A stretch of DNA of 58,701 nt from Acidobacteriota bacterium. Lineage in GTDB: Bacteria; Acidobacteriota; UBA4820; DSQY01. A program made the translations under genes and the position numbers. Shown here piece by piece: positions 249-58,701 of the stretch; within the stretch, counting starts at the first letter, position 1; each line of letters begins with the position of its first letter. Below the pieces are notes generated by a model. It made no database searches, had not been told where the DNA came from, and worked only from the letters and a program-made list of their open reading frames with translations. The stretch lies in NCBI GenBank assembly GCA_021787565.1, contig JAJYLT010000023.1, positions 1-58,701 of the forward strand, in the 5' to 3' direction.

Positions 249-1073
249 TCAGTAAGTAGCATCTACTTCAACATCCTCTTGGCGAATAACGACATGGAGA
301 GGGTCCTTGACGGAAATGTTGATGTTCGCTTGAATCGGGTAAAGACGGGAGAACTGCACGCCGTTGCCCCTATCCCAATCCCCGTCACTGCCATACTGAT
401 GCTTAACCTCCACTTGGCCAGAAATATTCAGATATATAGCTGCTTCGTCAATGGCCTCGACCGTTATGTCGTCTACACCTACGTCTTCAACCCAGTAGTG
501 TGTAGCTAACGTGTCTATCTGTGGAATCACGTCTGAGATTAAGGCCTCGAAAACGCTTTCCGAAACTCTCTCTTCATAAGCTGACGTGATGTCGTGGCGG
601 AAGTCATGGACCGTTTCCAAGAAACTACGGAGGGCCTCAAGAGTGCTCAGCACCATTGAATCTCCGTCATTCGCAGACACATGGAATGTCTCCTCCTCGA
701 TGTGGGTATACTTGCTGAGACGATCAATTGCCTCTCTTAGCTTGTTCGAGCCCGAGCCCAGGTCAATTCCAAGTTCCTGCCTAACGAAGTCATCACTCAA
801 GCCGCCTTTTATCGCATAAAGCATTCGTTGGCGGCGAGAAATACCATTGTTCTCTTGAGTTTCCTTCTTGTACCACTGACACTTAAGGATGGCCTCGTTA
901 GGTGCAAGGCGTGCCAGAATATGCCTTGTCAACTCGCGAAGACCTAATGCAAAGGAATTGTAACGAATGGGGTTACCCTTGTTCTCCAGTTGGCTGAGTG
1001 AAGCGTGGAGCAGACCATGTTCAAGTGTTTTGGTCAGTTCTCGATCAATCTGCGCTACGATTCTCTGGAACAT
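249..1073 (-). CDS. Cassette protein resembling predicted pPIWI-associated nucleases
   Basis: A 274-residue protein encoded alone in a cassette between attC sites 1 and 2. It appears cytosolic: no signal peptide or membrane helix is seen. The pattern in the second half (RRQRMLYAIKGGLSDDFV, then HIEEETFHV, then DTLATHYWVEDVGVDDITV, then a beta-rich tail with GQVEV and QYGSDGDWDRGNG) matches, from memory, proteins annotated as predicted pPIWI-associating nuclease. That family name comes from gene-neighbourhood work on prokaryotic Argonaute-like systems, and no activity is established here. The N-terminal 110 residues are helical and not recognised. Base composition is clearly lower in G+C than the chromosomal genes beyond 4633, as expected for a mobile cassette. 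A role in defence is an inference only. Confidence 0.55.
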   Translation of the reverse strand: MFQRIVAQIDRELTKTLEHGLLHASLSQLENKGNPIRYNSFALGLRELTRHILARLAPNEAILKCQWYKKETQENNGISRRQRMLYAIKGGLSDDFVRQELGIDLGSGSNKLREAIDRLSKYTHIEEETFHVSANDGDSMVLSTLEALRSFLETVHDFRHDITSAYEERVSESVFEALISDVIPQIDTLATHYWVEDVGVDDITVEAIDEAAIYLNISGQVEVKHQYGSDGDWDRGNGVQFSRLYPIQANINISVKDPLHVVIRQEDVEVDATY

Positions 1074-1115
1074 TCCTGACCCCCTATGCTCCTATGTGAC
1101 GATTTCTGCGAAGCA

Positions 1116-1243
1116 CCCTAACGCCCGCGTTCAGCGGGCCGGGCAACCAACGTTCGAGATAAGAGAATGGTGCAGCGGACTACCCCAAAGGGCAAAGCGT
1201 GAAGCTGGGCCCTGTCCCGGTCCGCTGCACCGCATCGTTAGGC
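1116..1243 (-). repeat. attC site 2
   Basis: Left core CCCTAAC at 1116-1122, right core GTTAGGC at 1237-1243, inner arms GCGTTCAGCGGGCCGGGC and CCCGGTCCGCTGCACCGC. The stop codon of the gene at 1238 (TAA) is formed by the right core, a common arrangement in cassettes. Confidence 0.85.
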
Positions 1244-1735
1244 TCCTCCGCACTCTTCACCTGGCATGTTATAGAAGAATCGAAAGTGACCTTTTAGATG
1301 GGGTGCAGTGAAGCCTGAAGGGAGAGGCAACTCTCTACTAGATGTGCGGAGGGCATCGATGGCGGCTTGATCGAAGAACGAGCAGCCGGAAAAGTGCCCC
1401 ACTGTGATATCGGTAATGGTGCCGTCACCTAGCACAGTAAAACACAGTTCGACCCAGCCTCTAAACCCATGTGCCATGGCATGTTGCGGCACCTGCCAGT
1501 GGGACTGAACCACTATCTGCATCTCATGAGCATAGGGTCCAAGGTCGACGTGGGAACCGGCAGGTGCCTCAAGAGAAAAACACTTGCCTTCGACAGCTTG
1601 AGCGCAGGATGGATGAGGTTGCCTAACATAAGCGGCTTGATCCCCCGATGAAAGACAGTCGACCGCGTGATTGGTTTCTCGAGCGGTGCAGGCACATAGT
1701 GCAACAAGGAGCAGGATGAAGGTCGGCAACTTCAT
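1238..1735 (-). CDS. TonB C-terminal domain lipoprotein (cassette gene)
   Basis: A 165-residue protein. The N-terminus (MKLPTFILLLVALCACTARE) is a signal sequence with a plausible lipobox ending at the Cys of LCAC, so it is probably lipid-anchored. The C-terminal half has the TonB-C/energy-transducer pattern: GWVELCFTVLGDGTITDITV, then FDQAAIDALRTS, then a short basic strand. Such domains contact TonB-box proteins or act as stand-alone envelope proteins; no proline-rich TonB spacer or N-terminal anchor helix of true TonB is present. The ATG at 1735 is preferred because GAGAGG lies 8 bases upstream; a longer start at 1750 is possible. The stop lies within attC site 2. Confidence 0.7.
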   Translation of the reverse strand: MKLPTFILLLVALCACTARETNHAVDCLSSGDQAAYVRQPHPSCAQAVEGKCFSLEAPAGSHVDLGPYAHEMQIVVQSHWQVPQHAMAHGFRGWVELCFTVLGDGTITDITVGHFSGCSFFDQAAIDALRTSSRELPLPSGFTAPHLKGHFRFFYNMPGEECGGA

Positions 1736-1759
1736 ATTCGCGCCTCTCATGATAAAGGA

Positions 1760-1889
1760 GCCTAACGCGTGCGTTCACCGGACCGGGCAACCAAGGCTAA
1801 AGATGAACAAGCGGAGCAACGGACCTCCTACAAAGGGCACCAGTTGAAGCATAGGCGGCGAACCGGTCCGGTGCAACGCGTTGTTAGGT
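1760..1889 (-). repeat. attC site 3
   Basis: Left core GCCTAAC at 1760-1766 and right core GTTAGGT at 1883-1889, with arms GCGTTCACCGGACCGGGC and CCGGTCCGGTGCAACGC. The single base changes in the two arms relative to the other sites (CACCGG versus CAGCGG, and CCGGTGC versus CCGCTGC) are compensatory. This shows that the folded stem, not the sequence, is conserved. Confidence 0.85.
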
Positions 1890-1946
1890 TGCGCTTGTTT
1901 TGAGGAGGTCTTGTTGCGCCGGTTTGGGCGCCTTGAGACACGCGCT

Positions 1947-2183
1947 CTATGCGCTTTCAATACCGAATTCTGCCTTGTACTGAAGATATCTTGCCGAAAC
2001 CTCTTTCTCATGCCGGACTTCATCGTCATAGAAACCTATGAGGATCGATTTCAGTGCTGGCTCTTCACACAAGTCAACTGCCTTCTGGTACATTGCTTGC
2101 GCCGAACGCTCAGCTTCTATTGCTATCTTGAAGGTCGCAAACAACTCTCGTTCTTTGTCGGTCATCGCCTTTATTACCTGCAT
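1947..2183 (-). CDS. Short ferritin-like (rubrerythrin-type) two-helix protein, cassette gene
   Basis: A 78-residue protein with two predicted amphipathic helices. The first carries AIEAERSAQAMYQKA and the second IGFYDDEVRHEKEV; the Glu of the first and the ExxRH of the second match one half of a ferritin-like di-iron site. A single four-helix ferritin unit needs two such halves, so the product probably dimerises, as known for encapsulated ferritin-like proteins. The start at 2183 is chosen because GGAGG lies 6 bases upstream; an in-frame start at 2204 has no such site. It sits alone between attC sites 3 and 4. A role in oxidative stress or iron handling is inference. Confidence 0.6.
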   Translation of the reverse strand: MQVIKAMTDKERELFATFKIAIEAERSAQAMYQKAVDLCEEPALKSILIGFYDDEVRHEKEVSARYLQYKAEFGIESA

Positions 2184-2246
2184 GCTCCACCTCCAATAAC
2201 GCAACTCAGGCCGATTCCGCAGCTCGTGTAGTTATTATACCCCGCA

Positions 2247-2352
2247 ACCTAACGCCAGCGTTCAGCGGGCCGGGCAACTGCGTCCGAACCAGCACAACGC
2301 CTTGCGAATCATTGAACATGATGGACCGGTCCGCTGCAACGCGTTGTTAGGC
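2247..2352 (-). repeat. attC site 4
   Basis: Left core ACCTAAC at 2247-2253 and right core GTTAGGC at 2346-2352; arms GCGTTCAGCGGGCCGGGC and GGACCGGTCCGCTGCAACGC. The stop codon of the VOC gene at 2347 lies in the right core. Confidence 0.87.
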
Positions 2353-2715
2353 CTCGGGCTTGTGGCAGACCGCTTCGACGTTGTGACCATCAGGGCCGAT
2401 GACAAATGCGCCATAGTAATTTGCATGGTAGTGCGGACGGAGGCCTGGCGCCCCATTGTCTTTGCCCCCGGCTTCAAGAGCGGCCCGATAGAAGTCTTGG
2501 ACCTGTTTGCGGGTCTCAGCTGTGAAAGCCAGGTGTAACTGTGCGGGCTTCTCTGAGCTTTGATAGAGCCAAAGCGATGGCTTTCCTTTTGGCCCTATTC
2601 CAAGGCCGTACTCGCCTTCCATAACGACACCCACTCCGAGAGGCTCAAGGGCTCGCTGGAAAAACGATTTGCTCGCATCGTAGTTGGTAACGCCAAAGCC
2701 AATGTGATCGAACAT
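2347..2715 (-). CDS. VOC-fold protein (glyoxalase/bleomycin resistance/dioxygenase superfamily), cassette gene
   Basis: A 122-residue protein with the paired beta-alpha-beta-beta-beta units of the vicinal oxygen chelate fold. It begins MFDHIGFGVTNYDASKSFF, has a central LHLAF strand and ends with a DGHNVEAVCH segment. The His near the N-terminus, the His of LHLAF and the Glu of NVEAV are the positions that usually bind metal. The substrate cannot be told from sequence; family members include glyoxalases, antibiotic-binding proteins and dioxygenases. AAGGAG lies 7 bases before the ATG at 2715. The single-gene cassette ends within attC site 4. Confidence 0.8.
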   Translation of the reverse strand: MFDHIGFGVTNYDASKSFFQRALEPLGVGVVMEGEYGLGIGPKGKPSLWLYQSSEKPAQLHLAFTAETRKQVQDFYRAALEAGGKDNGAPGLRPHYHANYYGAFVIGPDGHNVEAVCHKPEA

Positions 2716-2754
2716 GGGACTCTCCTTGTGAAAACGATGTGAGGTGAGTGCGAG

Positions 2755-2860
2755 GCCTAACGCCGGCGTTCAGCGGCCGGGCAACTGCGCGCTCAACCCT
2801 GCACGGCGCTTAGCGGACCTGCAAACGCGCGGACCGGTCCGCTGCAACGCGTGGTTAGGG
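2755..2860 (-). repeat. attC site 5
   Basis: Left core GCCTAAC at 2755-2761 and right core GTTAGGG at 2854-2860, with arms GCGTTCAGCGGCCGGGC and GGACCGGTCCGCTGCAACGC. This is the last site of the family that can be folded with confidence in the window. Confidence 0.85.
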
Positions 2861-3184
2861 GTTTCTCTTGGACTTGACCGCACCGTGCAACACGACTTGA
2901 GGTGAGCAAGACTACCGCCGGCCTGTGCCGGCCATTGCGGGGAGCATCGGGACATGGCGTGCTCAAAGCCCCGGTGCGGAGAGCCTGCACAAGCCTCGCG
3001 GCGAAGGGCCACCCTAGATGCGGGCGGAGGTGAAGCTGAGCCACGACCGGCTTTGTGAGCACCCTGCCGCCGCAGAACGTTGCCGCCGCACCTGCACGTG
3101 CCCACGCGGGCGGATGACCCGCCGTTTTGCACCGCACGCCTTGCCCCCCTTGAATGTTCCTTCAACCTTTTCACCAGCAATGGC
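2861..3184. other. Cassette-sized segment with no convincing gene
   Basis: This stretch lies between attC site 5 and a further CCCTAAC core at 3185-3191, so it has the size and flanks of a cassette. An open frame on the minus strand starts at 3180 but runs through the attC site and gives a low-complexity Arg/Gly/Ser-rich product. The alternative frames are no better. It may be a non-coding or decayed cassette. Confidence 0.4.
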
Positions 3185-51218: not shown

Positions 51219-51602
51219 CTACCGGGCGAGGGCGATGACCTCGATCTCTACGCGCACGTCCTTGGGGAGCCTCGCCACCTCCACCGTGGCACGCGCGGGG
51301 GGATCGGAGGGAAAGAATTCGGCGTAGGCCTCGTTCATGGCCGCGAAGTCGTTCATGTCCTTGAGGAAGACGGTGGTCTTGACCACGGTTCCGAGGGAGG
51401 CCCCCGCCGCATCGAGGACGGCGCCCAGGTTTTGGAGGACCCGGCGGGTCTGCTCGGCCACCCCGCCCTCCACCACGGTCATCGTGGCTGGATCCAGGGG
51501 GATCTGTCCCGAGCAGAAGACGAGGCCTCCGGCCCTCACGGCCTGGGAGTAAGGGCCGATCGCCTTGGGCGCACCCTCCGTTCGAACGATCTCTCTCTGC
51601 AT
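51219..51602 (-). CDS. ridA: RidA family enamine/imine deaminase
   Basis: A 127-residue protein of normal length. It has [39 protein letters not shown], and [20 protein letters not shown], with the Arg and Glu of the active site. It clears reactive enamines from PLP enzymes. The start at 51602 has GGAGGGG upstream. Confidence 0.93.
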
Positions 51603-51683
51603 GGACCCCTCCTTGGACAACGACGTCCCCCTAACGAGTACGAACGGCCCGAGGGCCGGATGCCTTCCCCGGCGGGTCCGGGC

Positions 51684-52461: not shown

Positions 52462-53823
52462 CTAATTCCTCAGCGAGGTGATGGGCGCGGGCATCTGGCC
52501 GCCCCGGCGCACGAAAGCCTCGCAGGAGAGCCGCCGGAGGTCCATGACGGGCGCTTCGCCCAGAAGCCCCCCGAAGGAGACGCTCTCCCCCACCCGCTTG
52601 CCGTAGGCCGGGATGACCCGCACCGCCGTGGTCTTGTGGTTGATGATGCCGATCGCCAGCTCATCGGCGATGAAGCCGGTGAGCAGTTCTTCCGAGACGT
52701 CGCCGGGGACGGCCACCATGTCGAGGCCCACGGAGCACACGCTGGTCATGGCCTCCAGCTTCTCGAGGCTCAGGGCGCCTTCCCGAGCCGCGGCGATCAT
52801 GGCGGCGTCCTCGCTGACGGGGATGAAGGCGCCGGAGAGTCCGCCCACGGCGGATGTGGCCATAACCCCGCCCTTCTTCACGGCATCGGTCAGCATGGCC
52901 AGGGCGGCCGTCGTGCCGCAGGCCCCCGTCCGCTCCAGGCCCATGGCCTCCAGCACCTCACCCACGGAGTCCCCGAGTTCGGGCGTGGGCGCGAGCGACA
53001 GGTCCACGATACCGAAGGGCACTCCCATCCTGTCGGCCACCTGACGCCCCAGGATCTCGCCCACCTTGGTGATCCTGTAGGCTGCCCGCTTGATCACCTC
53101 GGCCAGCGCCCGAAGGTCGCACGGGCCGGCCCGGCGGATGGCCTGACAGACGACGCCGGGGCCGCTCACGCCCGTGTGGATCACCACCTCCGGCAGGCCG
53201 ATGCCGTGGAAGGCCCCCGCCATGAACGGGTTATCCTCCACCGCGTTGGCGAAGATCACGAACTTGGCGCAGCCCAGGCTGCCGCTTTCGCGCGTCAGGT
53301 AGGCCGTCTCCTTGAGCATGTGCGCCACGAGGCGGACAGCGTCCAGGTTGAGCCCCGTCCTGCTGCTGCCGGCATTCACGGAGGAGCAGAGGGTCTTGGT
53401 GGTGCTGAGGGCCTCTGGCATGGAGGCGATGAGGGCGCGGTCGGCCTGCGTGAACCCGTCGTGCACGAGGGCCGTGTATCCCCCCACGAAGTCGAAGCCC
53501 ATCTCCTGCGCGGCCCTATCGATGGCGCGCGCGATGGCGAGATAGGAGCCCGGCTCCGCCCTGGTCCCGATGAGCGCCACCGGGCTCACGGCGATCCTGC
53601 GGTTCGCCACCCGTATGCCCAGAGCCTCCGTGATCTCCGCGACCACGCCCGGCAGGGGACCGGCCACGCGCACGAGCTTGGCGTAGACGCGGCGGCCGGC
53701 CTCTTCGGGATCTTCATGGCCGCAGTCCAGGAGGCTGACGCCGACGGTCACCGTGCGCACGTCGAAGTGCTCGAGCTCCGTCATCCTAAGGGTTTCCAAG
53801 ATCTCGCGCCGGGTGTAGTCCAT
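52462..53823 (-). CDS. UPF0210/PFL family protein
   Basis: A 453-residue protein, normal length, starting MDYTRREILETLRMTELEHFDVRTVTVGVS and containing GGYTALVHDGFT, SSVNAGSSRTGLN and FGIVDLSLAPTPELGDSVGE. The fold is related to pyruvate-formate lyase-like proteins, but without the glycyl radical end; the function is not known. The ACT protein lies just upstream. This pair is conserved in many bacteria and archaea. Confidence 0.92.
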   Translation of the reverse strand: MDYTRREILETLRMTELEHFDVRTVTVGVSLLDCGHEDPEEAGRRVYAKLVRVAGPLPGVVAEITEALGIRVANRRIAVSPVALIGTRAEPGSYLAIARAIDRAAQEMGFDFVGGYTALVHDGFTQADRALIASMPEALSTTKTLCSSVNAGSSRTGLNLDAVRLVAHMLKETAYLTRESGSLGCAKFVIFANAVEDNPFMAGAFHGIGLPEVVIHTGVSGPGVVCQAIRRAGPCDLRALAEVIKRAAYRITKVGEILGRQVADRMGVPFGIVDLSLAPTPELGDSVGEVLEAMGLERTGACGTTAALAMLTDAVKKGGVMATSAVGGLSGAFIPVSEDAAMIAAAREGALSLEKLEAMTSVCSVGLDMVAVPGDVSEELLTGFIADELAIGIINHKTTAVRVIPAYGKRVGESVSFGGLLGEAPVMDLRRLSCEAFVRRGGQMPAPITSLRN

Positions 53824-53878: not shown

Positions 53879-54310
53879 TCATATCCGGTTCAGGGCCCGC
53901 ATGAGGTCCTCGTACTGGACGAAGACCTGTACGCCCACCTCGTCACCGCGACGCTTGAGAGCGGTCTTGAGGTCGGCGAAGGAGAGCTTGGAGGAGGTGG
54001 GGTCCACGATCATCATCATGGCGAAATTCCCGTGGACGATGGTCTGGTTGATGTCCACGATGTCCACGGCGGCCTCCGCGAGCACCTCCGAGAAGGCGTG
54101 AACGATGCCCGAATGGTTCCGGCCCAGAACGGTCAAGACCATGAGCCTGCGGCCGGAGGGCTCGTCCGTCGCCGCCGGCTCGCTTCCCGCGGCCTCCAGC
54201 AGCCGGACCAGATCCGCCGTCACGGCCTCCACGGCGGAGGGCGCGGCACCCTGCGGCAGGTGCCGCAGCAGGATCTCCGCCACCTGGTAAGCCAGCCGTT
54301 CCCTGTCCAT
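53879..54310 (-). CDS. ACT-domain protein, UPF0237 type
   Basis: A 143-residue protein. The N-terminal 50 residues (MDRERLAYQVAEILLRHLPQ) are helical, then an ACT domain (about 53-143): RLMVLTVLGRNHSGIVHAFSEVLAE and VDIVDINQTIVHGNFAMMMIVD. UPF0237 members are usually about 90 residues; the extra N-terminus is unusual. It is a likely regulatory partner of the UPF0210 protein downstream. GGGAGG lies before the ATG at 54310. Confidence 0.85.
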   Translation of the reverse strand: MDRERLAYQVAEILLRHLPQGAAPSAVEAVTADLVRLLEAAGSEPAATDEPSGRRLMVLTVLGRNHSGIVHAFSEVLAEAAVDIVDINQTIVHGNFAMMMIVDPTSSKLSFADLKTALKRRGDEVGVQVFVQYEDLMRALNRI

Positions 54311-54413
54311 GACGCCTCCCGAGCCAAGAATACCCGAAGGGTGCTGGCCGCGCAAGGCGGCCGGTTGAGGGAGCGGGCCTTTCGTGTCATAGTGAGACGG
54401 GAGTCCTGTTGCC

Positions 54414-54812
54414 ATGTTCGACGAGAAGCTTGTGGTCCACTTCCTCGAAGGCGGAACGATCCAGGGCTTCGGCGAGAACTTCCTGCCCGGAGAAGGGGAA
54501 ATCCTCCTCCAGGACCTCCAGGGAAAAATCCACCACATCGAGCTCCGCACGGTGAAGGTCATCTGTTTCGTCAAGGACTTCCGGACGGTGCGGGCGGAGG
54601 GTGACCGGAAGGATACGCGGTTCCTCTACCAGGCGATGAGCGGGAGGAAGCTGAATCTCGTATTCAAGGACGGGGAGCACCTGGAGGGGACCGCAGCCCT
54701 GAGGGAAAGACCTGCGCAGGGTTTCTTCCTGACCCCCTTGTCAGACCAGACGAACAACCTCCAGATCTACGTGAATCCGGAGGCCCTCCTGCACTTCGGC
54801 TTCTCGGATTAG
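54414..54812 (+). CDS. Two-domain beta protein (DUF6982-like), paralogue of 35663-36058
   Basis: A 132-residue protein with two like halves: KLVVHFLEGGTIQGFGENFLP and KLNLVFKDGEHLEGTAALR. The halves each have an FxxG/DG turn and a Phe-rich closing strand. The pattern matches the protein at 35663-36058. It lies between the ACT gene and the chemoreceptor gene, both on the opposite strand. Function unknown. Confidence 0.72.
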   Translation: MFDEKLVVHFLEGGTIQGFGENFLPGEGEILLQDLQGKIHHIELRTVKVICFVKDFRTVRAEGDRKDTRFLYQAMSGRKLNLVFKDGEHLEGTAALRERPAQGFFLTPLSDQTNNLQIYVNPEALLHFGFSD

Positions 54813-54953: not shown

Positions 54954-57900
54954 TTACCTAGCCCCCTCCGCCAGCCAAATGTGATGGGCCCGCATGAGGG
55001 GGGGCGTGAACGAGAGCTTCATGCCCATCACCTCCGGCCGGTGAGGAATCATCCCCCAGCTATGCGTCAGAAAGACTGACGGAGCCTCCTCGACAATGAG
55101 GTCCTCCGCCTCCTCGTACAGCGCCGCCCGCTCCTCCAGGTCGAGGGATCTGCGCGCGCGCTCGATGAGGTCATCGAGGAGGGGGTTGTGGTATCGGGTC
55201 TGAAGGGCATCGCCGCCCAGCCTATGGAAGAGCACGAAGAGGAAGCTATCGGGGTCCGGGTAATCCGCGTACCACCCCGACGGGTAGAGGAGCGGGCGGC
55301 CTCCCGCGGTTCTGCGGCGCGCCTCGAATTCCTCGTGGCTCACCGGGTCCACCGTGATGCGCACGCCCACCGCGCGGTACATGTCAAAGACCAGGAGGGA
55401 CTCCTGAAATTGCGTGGCACGGCTCTTATCCATGGCTATGGTCAAATCGAGGCCCTGGGCGAAGCCCGCCTTGGCCAGCAGCCACCGGGCCTTGTCCGGG
55501 TCATGGTAGTAGCCCTTGCGATCCGCCTTGTAGCCGAGGATGCCCGGAGGGAAGATGCCCTTGGCCGGCGTGGCCCGGACGTGCGGGTGGCGGGCCAGGA
55601 GGCCGCTCCTGTCCACGGCGTAGTTGAGGGCCTGCCTGAACTCCTTGACGTTCCCCGGCGCCAGGTCGTTGCGGATGACGTGGATCTGGGTGTTCAGGAG
55701 GATGGTTTGCTCCGTGTTGTTTTCCCAGAAGGGATCCGCTAGCAGGCTCTCCAGGCTCTCGGAGGAAAGGGCCATCGCTATCTGCGACGCTCCCGATTTC
55801 AGACGCCCCATCAGCTCGCTTTCGGAGGATGAGGAGTAGTCGAACACGAGCCGGTCGATATAGGGGAGACCGGGTTCGTAATAGCCCTTGAAGCGTTCGA
55901 AATGGACCCGGGCCGGATCCGTACTCACGACCCGGAAAGGACCGCAGCCGATAGGTTTTGTGACCCGGAGGGTTCTCTCATCCACGGCCTCTGGAGGGAT
56001 GATGCTCGCCTCCGGGGTGGTCAGCATGTAGAGGAAGAAGGCGAGGGGCTCCCGGAGGCGGACCTCCACCGACCGGCTATCCAACGCCTTGATTCCCTCT
56101 ATCCGCCGGGCCTTTCCCGCCATGTACTCCTCGGAGCCCACCACCGCCGACAGGAACCACTGCCCCTCCTTGCCCAGCTTGGGGTCCAGCGCCCTGTGCC
56201 ACGAGAAGACCACGTCCTCGGCGGTCACCGTCCGGCCATTGTGAAACAATGCTCCGGGGCGCAGGTGGAACAGGTACACCAGGCCGTCCATGCTCACGTC
56301 CCAACTTTCGGCCACGGCGGGCAGGAGCTTGGTGCCGTAGCCGAACTTCACGAGGCCCTCGTTGAAGTTCTCCACCAGGGCCGAATCCCGGACGTTGTCG
56401 GCGAAAGCGTGGTCCAGGTTGAACTCGTAACGGACATACCCCACGCGGACCTCACCGCCCGGCGCGGGCTTGGGCAGCCGGAATCCCGACAGTTGTTCCA
56501 CCATCAAGATGCTGTCCTGGCGAAGGGTTCCCGCGGTCGAGGAGAGATCCCTCGCGCCGGCGAGGTTCTGTTGGGATACCGCCGCGACGGTATCGACGGC
56601 CTTGACGATCTGCTGGCCGGCCTGGGACATGCGCAAAAGGGCCTTCTGCGCCCTTTCCACGGAGCTCCGAACCTGGTTCATTCCGTCGGCAATGGCGCTG
56701 CTGCCCAGCGCCTCCTCCTGCATGGCCCGGTCCACGCTCTTGGTCAGGTCTTTCATGACCAAGCTCTTCTGGCTGATGAGCTTGGAGGTCTTGGCCTGTT
56801 CGCGGGTCGCCAGAGAGATCTGCTCGATCCTGCCCGTCATCTCCTCGATGGCCGTGGTCACCTGGCGGCTTCCCTTGGCCTGCTCCGAGGCCGCCCGCGC
56901 GATGTGGCTGATGCTGGTACCGGCCGTCTCGATGGACTCGCGGATGCTCTTCAAGTTGTCCTCGGAGGCACGCCCCAGCCGGACCCCCTCCTCGACCCGC
57001 TGCGTGCCCTCCCGGGCGACCCGGCCGGCCTGCTCCACCTCCTTCTGGATCGTCAGGATGATGGTGCCCACTTCGGAGGTGGAGGCGGAGGTGCGCTCCG
57101 CCAGACCCCGGATCTCCTCGGCGACCACGCCGAAGCTCTTGCCGTGCTCGCCCGCCTGCGCCGCTATGATGGCGGCGTTGAGGGCCAGGAGGTTGGTCTG
57201 ATCGGCGATCTCGCGGATCACCTTCAGGATCTTGCCGATCTCCTTGGATCTCTGGCTGAGGGACTCCATGGAAGCCATGTTCGCATTCATGGCGGCCTGG
57301 ATCTTCTCCAGTCCGTTGACCGTCTCCTTCACCACGGTCACCCCGCCCTGGGAGGCGGTCGATACCTGGTTGGACATGACCTCCGCCTCCTGGATGTTGG
57401 CCTCGATCTGTCCGATCGTGGCATCCATCTGCACCATGGCGGAGGAGTTCTGGATCGCGAAGGAGGAGAGGCTCTCGGCGTGGCCGGCCACCTCCTCGAC
57501 GGAGCGCGCCATCTCCTCGATCGACGCGCTGATCTCGTCCACGAAGTTCGACAGGTTCCGCGTAGCGCCCAGCACCTCCTCGATGGAGGCCCGCATCTCC
57601 AAAATGGAGCTGCTGGTCTTGTCCGTGAACCCGGAGAGGATGTCCGCTCCCTCCACCACCTTCTCAATCTCGTTTTCGAGCTGGGCGATGGAGTTTCGGA
57701 CCTGCGTCACGGACTCGGCCTGATCCTTGGTTTCCCGGAAGAGGCTGCGGGTCTTGTCGGTGATGAGGCTGGAGGCGGTGGAGACGCTCTCCGCCGTGTC
57801 CTGGAGATAGCTGATGATGCTCTGGAAGGAGCGGAGCACCCTCAGGAAGCCGGGGTGTGCCTCCGTGACCTCCTGGGAGCGCGCGTCGCCCCCGATGGTC

Positions 57901-58127
57901 AGGTTGCCGGAGGCCAGGCTGCGGAGCATCTGGTCCAGAGGGGACTGGTCCGCCGCGGTCTCTCGGCGGGCGAGGGCCGCCACCCCTCCGGCCAGCGCGC
58001 CGCAGATCAGCAGGTACAGCCAGAAGCGGCCAGTGAAGGTGGAGGTGGGCAACATCAGAACACCCAGCACCGCCAGGAAAGCCATCGCCACCGCGCCGAC
58101 CAGCACCGCTCTCAGCCAAGCCTGCAT
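54954..58127 (-). CDS. Chemoreceptor (MCP) fused to an ABC-type peptide-binding domain
   Basis: A 1057-residue protein. Two membrane helices lie near the N-terminus (about 5-27 and 35-55) with only about eight residues between them, so all that follows should be cytoplasmic. A HAMP-like start (LASGNLT) is followed by a long coiled coil with the MCP tip EIADQTNLLALNAAII at about 310-325. The usual Glu and Arg of AAIEAARAGE are Ile and Gln here. Residues of about 555-1057 are an SBP_bac_5 (OppA/DppA-like) domain: ALVENFNEGLVKFGYG, DVSMDGLVYLFHLRPGALFH, TAEDVVFSWHRALDP and GGDALQTRYHNPLLDDLI. The ATG at 58127 has AAGGAGGGG upstream. A cytoplasmic peptide sensor is an inference. Confidence 0.85.
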   Translation of the reverse strand: MQAWLRAVLVGAVAMAFLAVLGVLMLPTSTFTGRFWLYLLICGALAGGVAALARRETAADQSPLDQMLRSLASGNLTIGGDARSQEVTEAHPGFLRVLRSFQSIISYLQDTAESVSTASSLITDKTRSLFRETKDQAESVTQVRNSIAQLENEIEKVVEGADILSGFTDKTSSSILEMRASIEEVLGATRNLSNFVDEISASIEEMARSVEEVAGHAESLSSFAIQNSSAMVQMDATIGQIEANIQEAEVMSNQVSTASQGGVTVVKETVNGLEKIQAAMNANMASMESLSQRSKEIGKILKVIREIADQTNLLALNAAIIAAQAGEHGKSFGVVAEEIRGLAERTSASTSEVGTIILTIQKEVEQAGRVAREGTQRVEEGVRLGRASEDNLKSIRESIETAGTSISHIARAASEQAKGSRQVTTAIEEMTGRIEQISLATREQAKTSKLISQKSLVMKDLTKSVDRAMQEEALGSSAIADGMNQVRSSVERAQKALLRMSQAGQQIVKAVDTVAAVSQQNLAGARDLSSTAGTLRQDSILMVEQLSGFRLPKPAPGGEVRVGYVRYEFNLDHAFADNVRDSALVENFNEGLVKFGYGTKLLPAVAESWDVSMDGLVYLFHLRPGALFHNGRTVTAEDVVFSWHRALDPKLGKEGQWFLSAVVGSEEYMAGKARRIEGIKALDSRSVEVRLREPLAFFLYMLTTPEASIIPPEAVDERTLRVTKPIGCGPFRVVSTDPARVHFERFKGYYEPGLPYIDRLVFDYSSSSESELMGRLKSGASQIAMALSSESLESLLADPFWENNTEQTILLNTQIHVIRNDLAPGNVKEFRQALNYAVDRSGLLARHPHVRATPAKGIFPPGILGYKADRKGYYHDPDKARWLLAKAGFAQGLDLTIAMDKSRATQFQESLLVFDMYRAVGVRITVDPVSHEEFEARRRTAGGRPLLYPSGWYADYPDPDSFLFVLFHRLGGDALQTRYHNPLLDDLIERARRSLDLEERAALYEEAEDLIVEEAPSVFLTHSWGMIPHRPEVMGMKLSFTPPLMRAHHIWLAEGAR

Positions 58128-58288
58128 GGGCGCTTCCCCTCCTTCCGTTATCCCGCCCATCATAAGGGTCGCGCCGGAACCATGTCAATGAAGATGAGGT
58201 GATTTCGAAAAGGGCCGGCGGGCGGTGCTCCCCTCCCGCCCCCTGTCCGCTGTCCGCTGTCCCCACGCCCCCGCTCGCCGCCGCACTG

Positions 58289-58381: not shown

Positions 58382-58701
58382 GTGCTGCCGCGCATAGACC
58401 ACGTCATCGAAAAGGTCAAGCTGTACAATCCGAGCTCGGACTCGCGGCTGCTGCAGCGGGCCTACCTCTTTTCCGCTTACGCGCACGAGGGCCAGACGAG
58501 GGTTTCGGGGGAGCCCTACCTGGTCCACCCCGTGGCCGTCTGCGACATCCTTGCCGACCTGAAGGCGGACGACGTCGCCATCGTCTCGGGACTTCTGCAC
58601 GACGTGGTGGAGGACAACCTCTCCGTGAGCCTTCAGGAGATCCAGCGCCGGTTCGGGCCGGAGGTGAGCCACATCGTGGACGGGGTGACCAAGATCGAGG
58701 A
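58382..58701 (+). CDS. RelA/SpoT (p)ppGpp synthetase/hydrolase, N-terminal part
   Basis: The frame runs from a GTG at 58382 to the right edge without a stop, giving 106 residues. It contains HVIEKVKLYNPSSDSRLLQRA, YLFSAYAHEGQTRVSGEPYL and VHPVAVCDILADLKADDVAI, then the HD motif GLLHDVVED and FGPEVSHIVDGVTKIE. This is the conserved hydrolase domain of bifunctional Rel proteins. The synthetase domain would lie past the edge. AAGGAAG precedes the GTG by about 9 bases. Confidence 0.9.
   Translation, partial: MLPRIDHVIEKVKLYNPSSDSRLLQRAYLFSAYAHEGQTRVSGEPYLVHPVAVCDILADLKADDVAIVSGLLHDVVEDNLSVSLQEIQRRFGPEVSHIVDGVTKIE

Follow-up and report, generated by a model that had tools for sequence, protein, structure and literature searches.

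Chemoreceptors with internal sensors are already known, TlpD with its C-terminal CZB domain among them. SBP_bac_5 has likewise been described at the C-terminus of SgrR/DsvR, transcription factors in which it is combined with an HTH (PMC13060122). Chemoreceptors activated by periplasmic binding proteins have been reviewed (PMC9602780), and a census of solute-binding proteins (SBPs) notes that cytosolic proteins and sensor domains, too, are hit by SBP profiles (PMC9602780). Binding proteins are treated as extracytoplasmic; the conserved lineage described here appears to work inside the cell, as covalently attached sensors of chemoreceptors. No published report of an MCP with a C-terminal SBP was found in the open-access papers searched. 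The gene in question lies in a 58,701-nucleotide stretch of Acidobacteriota DNA, called the window below.

Layout and conservation of the fusion

The 1057-aa protein (P0001) is encoded by a minus-strand ORF in one continuous frame, open over 1069 codons (54954-58163), for which the best start is the ATG at 58127, with GGAGG ~10 nt upstream. The following features were assigned to it:

54954..58127, minus strand: MCP-SBP_bac_5 fusion gene, 1057 aa (single open frame, Shine-Dalgarno upstream, Pfam MCPsignal and SBP_bac_5)
58050..58106, minus strand: predicted membrane helix 1, residues 8-26 (Kyte-Doolittle peak 2.79)
57969..58025, minus strand: predicted membrane helix 2, residues 35-53, then ARRE (Kyte-Doolittle peak 2.03)
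56487..57830, minus strand: chemoreceptor coiled-coil hairpin, residues 100-547, arms of 225 and 222 residues (identical arms in 29 fusions and 16 non-fused receptors)
56835..57293, minus strand: MCPsignal domain, residues 279-431 (Pfam PF00015, 3.2e-44)
57147..57179, minus strand: signalling tip NAAIIAAQAGE, residues 317-327 (I321 and Q324 in place of Glu and Arg)
54957..56462, minus strand: C-terminal peptide-type solute-binding domain, residues 556-1057 (SBP_bac_5 5.5e-68; PDB relatives 8upi, HbpA, DppA)
55242..55277, minus strand: pocket motif GWYADYPDPDSF, residues 951-962 (W952, D955, D958 and D960 invariant in 29/29 fusions)

Both Pfam matches exceed their curated cut-offs (151 vs. 34.6 bits for PF00015; 230 vs. 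32.4 bits for SBP_bac_5), and the SBP_bac_5 match, at residues 601-968, spans positions 2-362 of 368 and thus nearly the entire profile. A preliminary description of this DNA had placed an SBP_bac_5 domain (about residues 555-1057) behind a full MCP coiled coil, which the Pfam matches and the single frame bear out. The linker from hairpin to SBP is short and of fixed length (F-x-L-P-x-P-x-x-GG).

Relatives were searched in two rounds, 60 genomes first and then 396 Acidobacteriota genomes, and the same MCP-SBP_bac_5 order, which the preliminary description had proposed to look for, was found in 31 of the 396. The full-length set comprises 29 aligned open frames, leaving out G005, where the fusion runs off the end of a contig, and G229, where it is divided between two contigs. 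Identity to the fusion is 96% within the genus, 55-69% within the family, ~50% within the order and 26-39% in about ten further families. A stop between the domains, or confinement to one assembly, had been named as grounds for doubt; none of the 29 full-length homologues has such a stop, and they come from separate assemblies. Between fixed landmarks the arms are 225 and 222 residues long in every one of the 29, with zero indels in the coiled coil, and the distance to the conserved GG of the SBP part is constant as well. The SBP part is under purifying selection: its dN/dS, where measurable (three pairs), was 0.07-0.20, about the value for the hairpin, and the membrane segment diverges faster. 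In a plasmid collection no record covered 80% of the query, and hence no fusion was found there.

Receptor class and signalling tip

The tip (sequence LNAAIIAAQAGEHGK) carries Ile321 where Tsr has E385 and Gln324 where it has R388, as had been noticed previously. In Tsr and its relatives, E385-R388' forms an ionic lock between dimers (PMC8144572). This Glu/Arg trimer-contact pair, usual in the MCP family though not defining it, is absent from the fusion; we count its absence as a class feature, common to the non-fused relatives. Across the 29 fusions the Glu-equivalent site holds Ile (18), Leu (7), Ala (3) or Phe (1), and the Arg-equivalent site Gln (28) or Asn (1). This type of tip is not specific to the fusion and was rejected as a fusion-specific feature, being common to 16 non-fused receptors of the same genome set (15 with Ile/Leu plus Gln, one with Ile plus Gly) whose arms are exactly 225/222 residues long. 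These non-fused members stop 0-3 residues after residue 551, where the SBP of the fusion begins. Given the same tip, arm length and end point, the fusion amounts to an SBP appended to a complete receptor of this class. By length the fusion fits 32 heptads per arm, class 64H in the published scheme; the Glu/Arg receptors encoded in this genome differ from it in length. Glu pairs that might serve reversible methylation occur in the arms (IEEM, VEEV), and the genome encodes CheR.

Among the receptors seen, the contact pair was either Glu with Arg/His or Ile/Leu/Ala with Gln/Gly, with no Glu-Gln or Ile-Arg mixture. That both partners of the lock changed together, and never one alone, is as expected of a changed rather than a lost contact. 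A third variant of the pair was observed in a 903-aa receptor of the same arm length (L003 289-3000; G000, contig C57), which has an Ile/Gly tip, NASIIAAGAGEYG. In the fusions of family f14 (L099 in G211, L023, L097 and L098) the tip is degraded, e.g., NATIFSHNIDERPQ, and these members are perhaps losing kinase control. The f14 genome G024 gave only a weak CheA dimer match, and kinase coupling in this family may be weak or lost.

The solute-binding domain and its pocket

The best solved-structure relatives of the SBP part are 8upi, HbpA and DppA (peptide and haem/dipeptide binding proteins), while its match to the SgrR model is weak (33 bits). Two trees, rooted at the midpoint only, separate all stand-alone SBPs, by a branch with support of 99/99 (94 in the quick tree), from the MCP-fused SBPs and those of the giant kinases described below; the placement of four f14 fusions in these trees is unsure, so that they do not establish a single origin of all fusions.

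Motif GWYADYPDPDSF aligns with DppA 404-415, which puts D955 on DppA D408, the residue that binds the amino end of the peptide. W952, D955, D958 and D960 are invariant in all 29 fusions, down to about 26% identity. The peptide C-terminus is bound in DppA by R355, which falls on R903, and an Arg is matched here in only 11 of the 29. With D955 invariant and R903 variable, the site for the amino group has probably been retained, and specificity may vary; since R355 is matched in so few fusions, the ligand may differ between lineages or may not be a dipeptide. AlphaFold2 models of the SBP part and of the whole protein (nine sequences) had pLDDT values of 44 and 47.5 and pTM of about 0.3, too poor for a pocket, linker or fold search.

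The variable Arg also leaves room for a receptor that faces the cytoplasm and is coupled to a kinase but whose SBP no longer binds a small ligand, having become a structural cap or a protein docking site; docking of stand-alone SBPs on receptors is known (PMC9602780). We consider this unlikely, although it deserves to be kept in mind: the cleft motif W952/D955/D958/D960 stays invariant where overall identity has fallen to about 26%, the dN/dS of the SBP is about as low as that of the hairpin, and an unrelated sugar-binding protein occupies the same junction in other receptors of the class (see below), which suggests that binding is the shared function.

Chemosensory genes and probable kinase coupling

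The preliminary description had noted that no CheA or CheW gene lies in the window. This is true of the window but not of the genome, which has eight matches to the CheW domain, a CheR and, beside a CheY on contig C56, a full CheA with Hpt, dimer, ATPase and CheW domains. In G021, G039 and G051 one intact cluster runs CheY-CheA2-AAA, then CheW, a zinc-ribbon response regulator, a HEAT-repeat protein, CheR and CheB; in G000, G009, G010 and G011 this cluster is split. No receptor gene was seen within it in the genomes looked at. In G000 the CheA2 chemosensory system with its AAA ATPase, HEAT-repeat protein and zinc-ribbon response regulator is found at L078 7541-10839 (C56) and L080 620-5369 (C35).

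The Glu/Arg receptors examined sit beside CheA-like genes of their own (on C2 and C40 in G000, and in G009, G010, G011 and G021) and the CheA2 system is receptor-less; by exclusion, the Ile/Gln receptors are assigned to CheA2. A CheA2-like match (1e-80) was obtained in 28 of the 31 fusion genomes and in 62 of 366 others (Fisher 6e-17, uncorrected for shared ancestry), the three without it being G007 (67% completeness), G211 and G227. We thus infer the pairing with CheA2 from exclusion and from a profile that shared ancestry can also produce. In the sample of 60 genomes, CheW was present in all 18 fusion genomes, and the fusion in none of the 19 genomes lacking CheW. In addition, a non-fused 730-aa Ile/Gln receptor or its counterpart adjoins cheW in 14 genomes. 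From the gene content we infer that the fusion would be coupled to a kinase. Directly upstream of the 730-aa receptor and its CheW in G000 (C37) lies a gene for an ABC_sub_bind-family protein with a signal-like N-terminus (L002, 6-920, the receptor being at 913-3069), possibly a separate binding protein that feeds this receptor.

An altered tip had been read previously as a sign that classic kinase coupling may not be used; on this view the Ile/Gln pair would abolish classic trimer formation and kinase control, and the signal would take another route. Replacement of both partners of the Glu-Arg lock (Tsr E385-R388', PMC8144572) and the further decay of the tip in f14 would fit this, yet we regard it as improbable. 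The same tip is found in non-fused receptors, including the one adjacent to cheW in 14 genomes; the two sites changed together and never singly; CheW accompanies every fusion in the 60-genome sample, with no fusion in the CheW-less genomes; and the receptor-less CheA2 system, a set of CheA, CheW, CheR and CheY for which the genome offers no other obvious receptor, runs counter to the claim.

Predicted location of the solute-binding domain

Two close N-terminal membrane helices, from which a cytoplasmic SBP had been proposed, were recovered at residues 8-26 and 35-53, and Kyte-Doolittle analysis of P0001 gave no hydrophobic helix after residue 53. The SBP domain is strongly predicted to be cytoplasmic, because the whole signalling hairpin, necessarily cytoplasmic itself, separates the anchor from the SBP. 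Five fusions (L021, L091, L092, L093 and L096) have no N-terminal membrane helix and thereby provide a natural topology test, and no fusion homologue with a periplasmic SBP part was found. Among stand-alone SBPs, those nearest to the fused one (32-37% identity) bear lipoprotein-type signals (e.g., LACG, TACA, DGCS) and are adjoined by DppB/DppC-like permeases; no signal peptide or lipobox precedes the fused SBP, and permeases occur only beside the stand-alone relatives. Lack of an export signal and of a permease neighbour points to a sensor domain of SBP_bac_5 fold rather than a transport SBP.

Although an extracytoplasmic location is normal for SBP_bac_5 proteins, export of the SBP part to act outside the membrane is very improbable, with no signal peptide before the domain, no helix past residue 53, a necessarily cytoplasmic MCP part between anchor and SBP, and five homologues without any helix; we rejected it on the helix-less homologues and the missing signal. 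An assembly or annotation artefact, conceivable in a window from a draft genome of 77 contigs, can be dismissed, as chance and misassembly are excluded by recurrence of the fusion in 31 genomes, with 29 aligned full-length copies in separate assemblies, including the single-contig genome G021, and a linker of fixed length.

Genomic neighbourhood and likely output

The genes around the fusion in the window include:

53879..54574, minus strand: ACT-domain protein, next same-strand gene, adjacent in related genomes (Pfam ACT_6 1.4e-13; synteny)
52462..53823, minus strand: DUF711 protein, syntenic (Pfam 7.7e-170)
51219..51620, minus strand: RidA-like protein, syntenic (Pfam PF01042 5.9e-47)
58382..58701, plus strand: RelA/SpoT gene, divergent, start only in the window (98% identical to a 762-aa HD-RelA_SpoT-TGS-ACT ORF in L036)

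The order fusion, ACT-domain gene, DUF711, unknown protein and RidA is preserved across the taxonomic order, with RelA/SpoT divergent from the fusion wherever the upstream side is readable. ACT, RidA and RelA/SpoT all touch on amino-acid status, which would fit a sensor of amino acids or peptides. That RelA/SpoT or the ACT-domain protein is a direct partner was nevertheless rejected, since the synteny holds within the order only and this neighbourhood is absent from six other fusion genomes that were read. A DUF6982 protein (window 54414-54812, plus strand) is convergent with the fusion; it adjoins the fusion in L036 and L039 but not in L038, L040, L041 and L043.

No flagellar rod family was found in members of the order, and the pilus protein PilO is present in most of them, so the output is probably pilus-driven or some other surface behaviour.

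Proposed mechanism

We favour, with a probability of roughly 60%, a membrane-tethered, cytoplasm-facing chemoreceptor that reads an intracellular peptide-like or amino-acid-like ligand, joins arrays of its own class and controls the CheA2 system with a pilus or surface output. The suggestion of an internal peptide or metabolite sensor made in the preliminary description thus remains the best reading, on the basis of the conserved fusion and the predicted cytoplasmic SBP.

Under this model, the two N-terminal helices would anchor the receptor in the membrane, and the long hairpin would run out to the Ile/Gln tip and then back, which would bring the C-terminus to the membrane-proximal base, where the linker would hold the SBP. 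Closing of the SBP on its ligand would pull on the C-terminal arm at its base or twist it there, a change that would be relayed along this arm to the tip. The tip would join arrays with other receptors of the same length and tip class, and the receptor would control the CheY-CheA2-AAA plus CheW-ZnRR-HEAT-CheR-CheB system, altering CheA2 activity. CheR and CheB would adapt the signal, and CheY would act on the pili or the surface behaviour of these cells, which bear pili but no flagella.

Other putative intracellular binding-protein fusions

Receptors of the 225/222 class were also found in three deltaproteobacteria-like genomes (G397, G406 and G407), the search of another phylum having covered three genomes. 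Two of the receptors, L198 in G397 and L195 in G406, carry a 314-residue XylF-like sugar-binding domain at the same junction (Peripla_BP_4 2.9e-47; xylF model 1.3e-88, below its curated cut-off), with two N-terminal hydrophobic helices and no signal before the sugar domain.

Within the Acidobacteriota, giant proteins with tandem SBP_bac_5 domains were observed in G016, G036 and G051 (L107 2703-8348, L108 961-6639, L109 170-5806, L110 2468-8203 and L111 2548-8973). The three that were scanned (L107, L109 and L111) are fusions of a Ser/Thr kinase with AAA_16, in part also with TPR-like repeats; these giant kinases measure 1.9-2.1 kaa, have two SBP_bac_5 domains and little or no membrane segment. 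In the same phylum, then, binding proteins apparently also serve as covalent intracellular sensors of Ser/Thr kinases.

Binding-protein folds appear to have been used repeatedly as cytoplasmic sensors, and we read these cases as a general design of intracellular binding-protein sensors. More tentatively, and with somewhat less than even odds, the receptor class with 225/222 arms, an Ile/Gln-type tip and its own CheA/CheW/HEAT system would take binding proteins as plug-in cytoplasmic C-terminal sensors, SBP_bac_5 in Acidobacteriota and XylF-like in deltaproteobacteria, to report internal peptides or sugars, its tip having swapped the Glu-Arg lock for a different contact, by which its arrays stay separate from classic ones. 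The fusion makes it testable whether the Glu-Arg trimer lock can be exchanged for another contact, keeping parallel arrays apart in one cell, and it could be used directly to study how a binding domain of the clamshell type can drive a receptor from the hairpin base, with no membrane crossing.

Comparison with known systems

Like McpR (PMC10579534) and TlpD, the fusion has an MCP hairpin that would be controlled by an intracellular sensor, and TlpD is a precedent for the C-terminal position of that sensor; unlike in either, a peptide-type solute-binding protein of 500 residues would serve as the sensor, and most of the fusion family is membrane-tethered. SgrR and DsvR share the use of a C-terminal SBP_bac_5 as an intracellular sensor, but their output is DNA binding, whereas that of the fusion would be a chemosensory array. 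DppA, HbpA and related peptide binders of ABC importers are its closest sequence relatives of solved structure, and the equivalent of D408 is kept; in contrast to them, the fusion has neither signal peptide nor permease partner, and its SBP is joined to the receptor and predicted to lie inside the cell. Finally, as in the chemoreceptors served by periplasmic binding proteins, a binding protein and a receptor would work together, although there the binder is separate and outside, while here it is covalently attached and, as predicted, inside.
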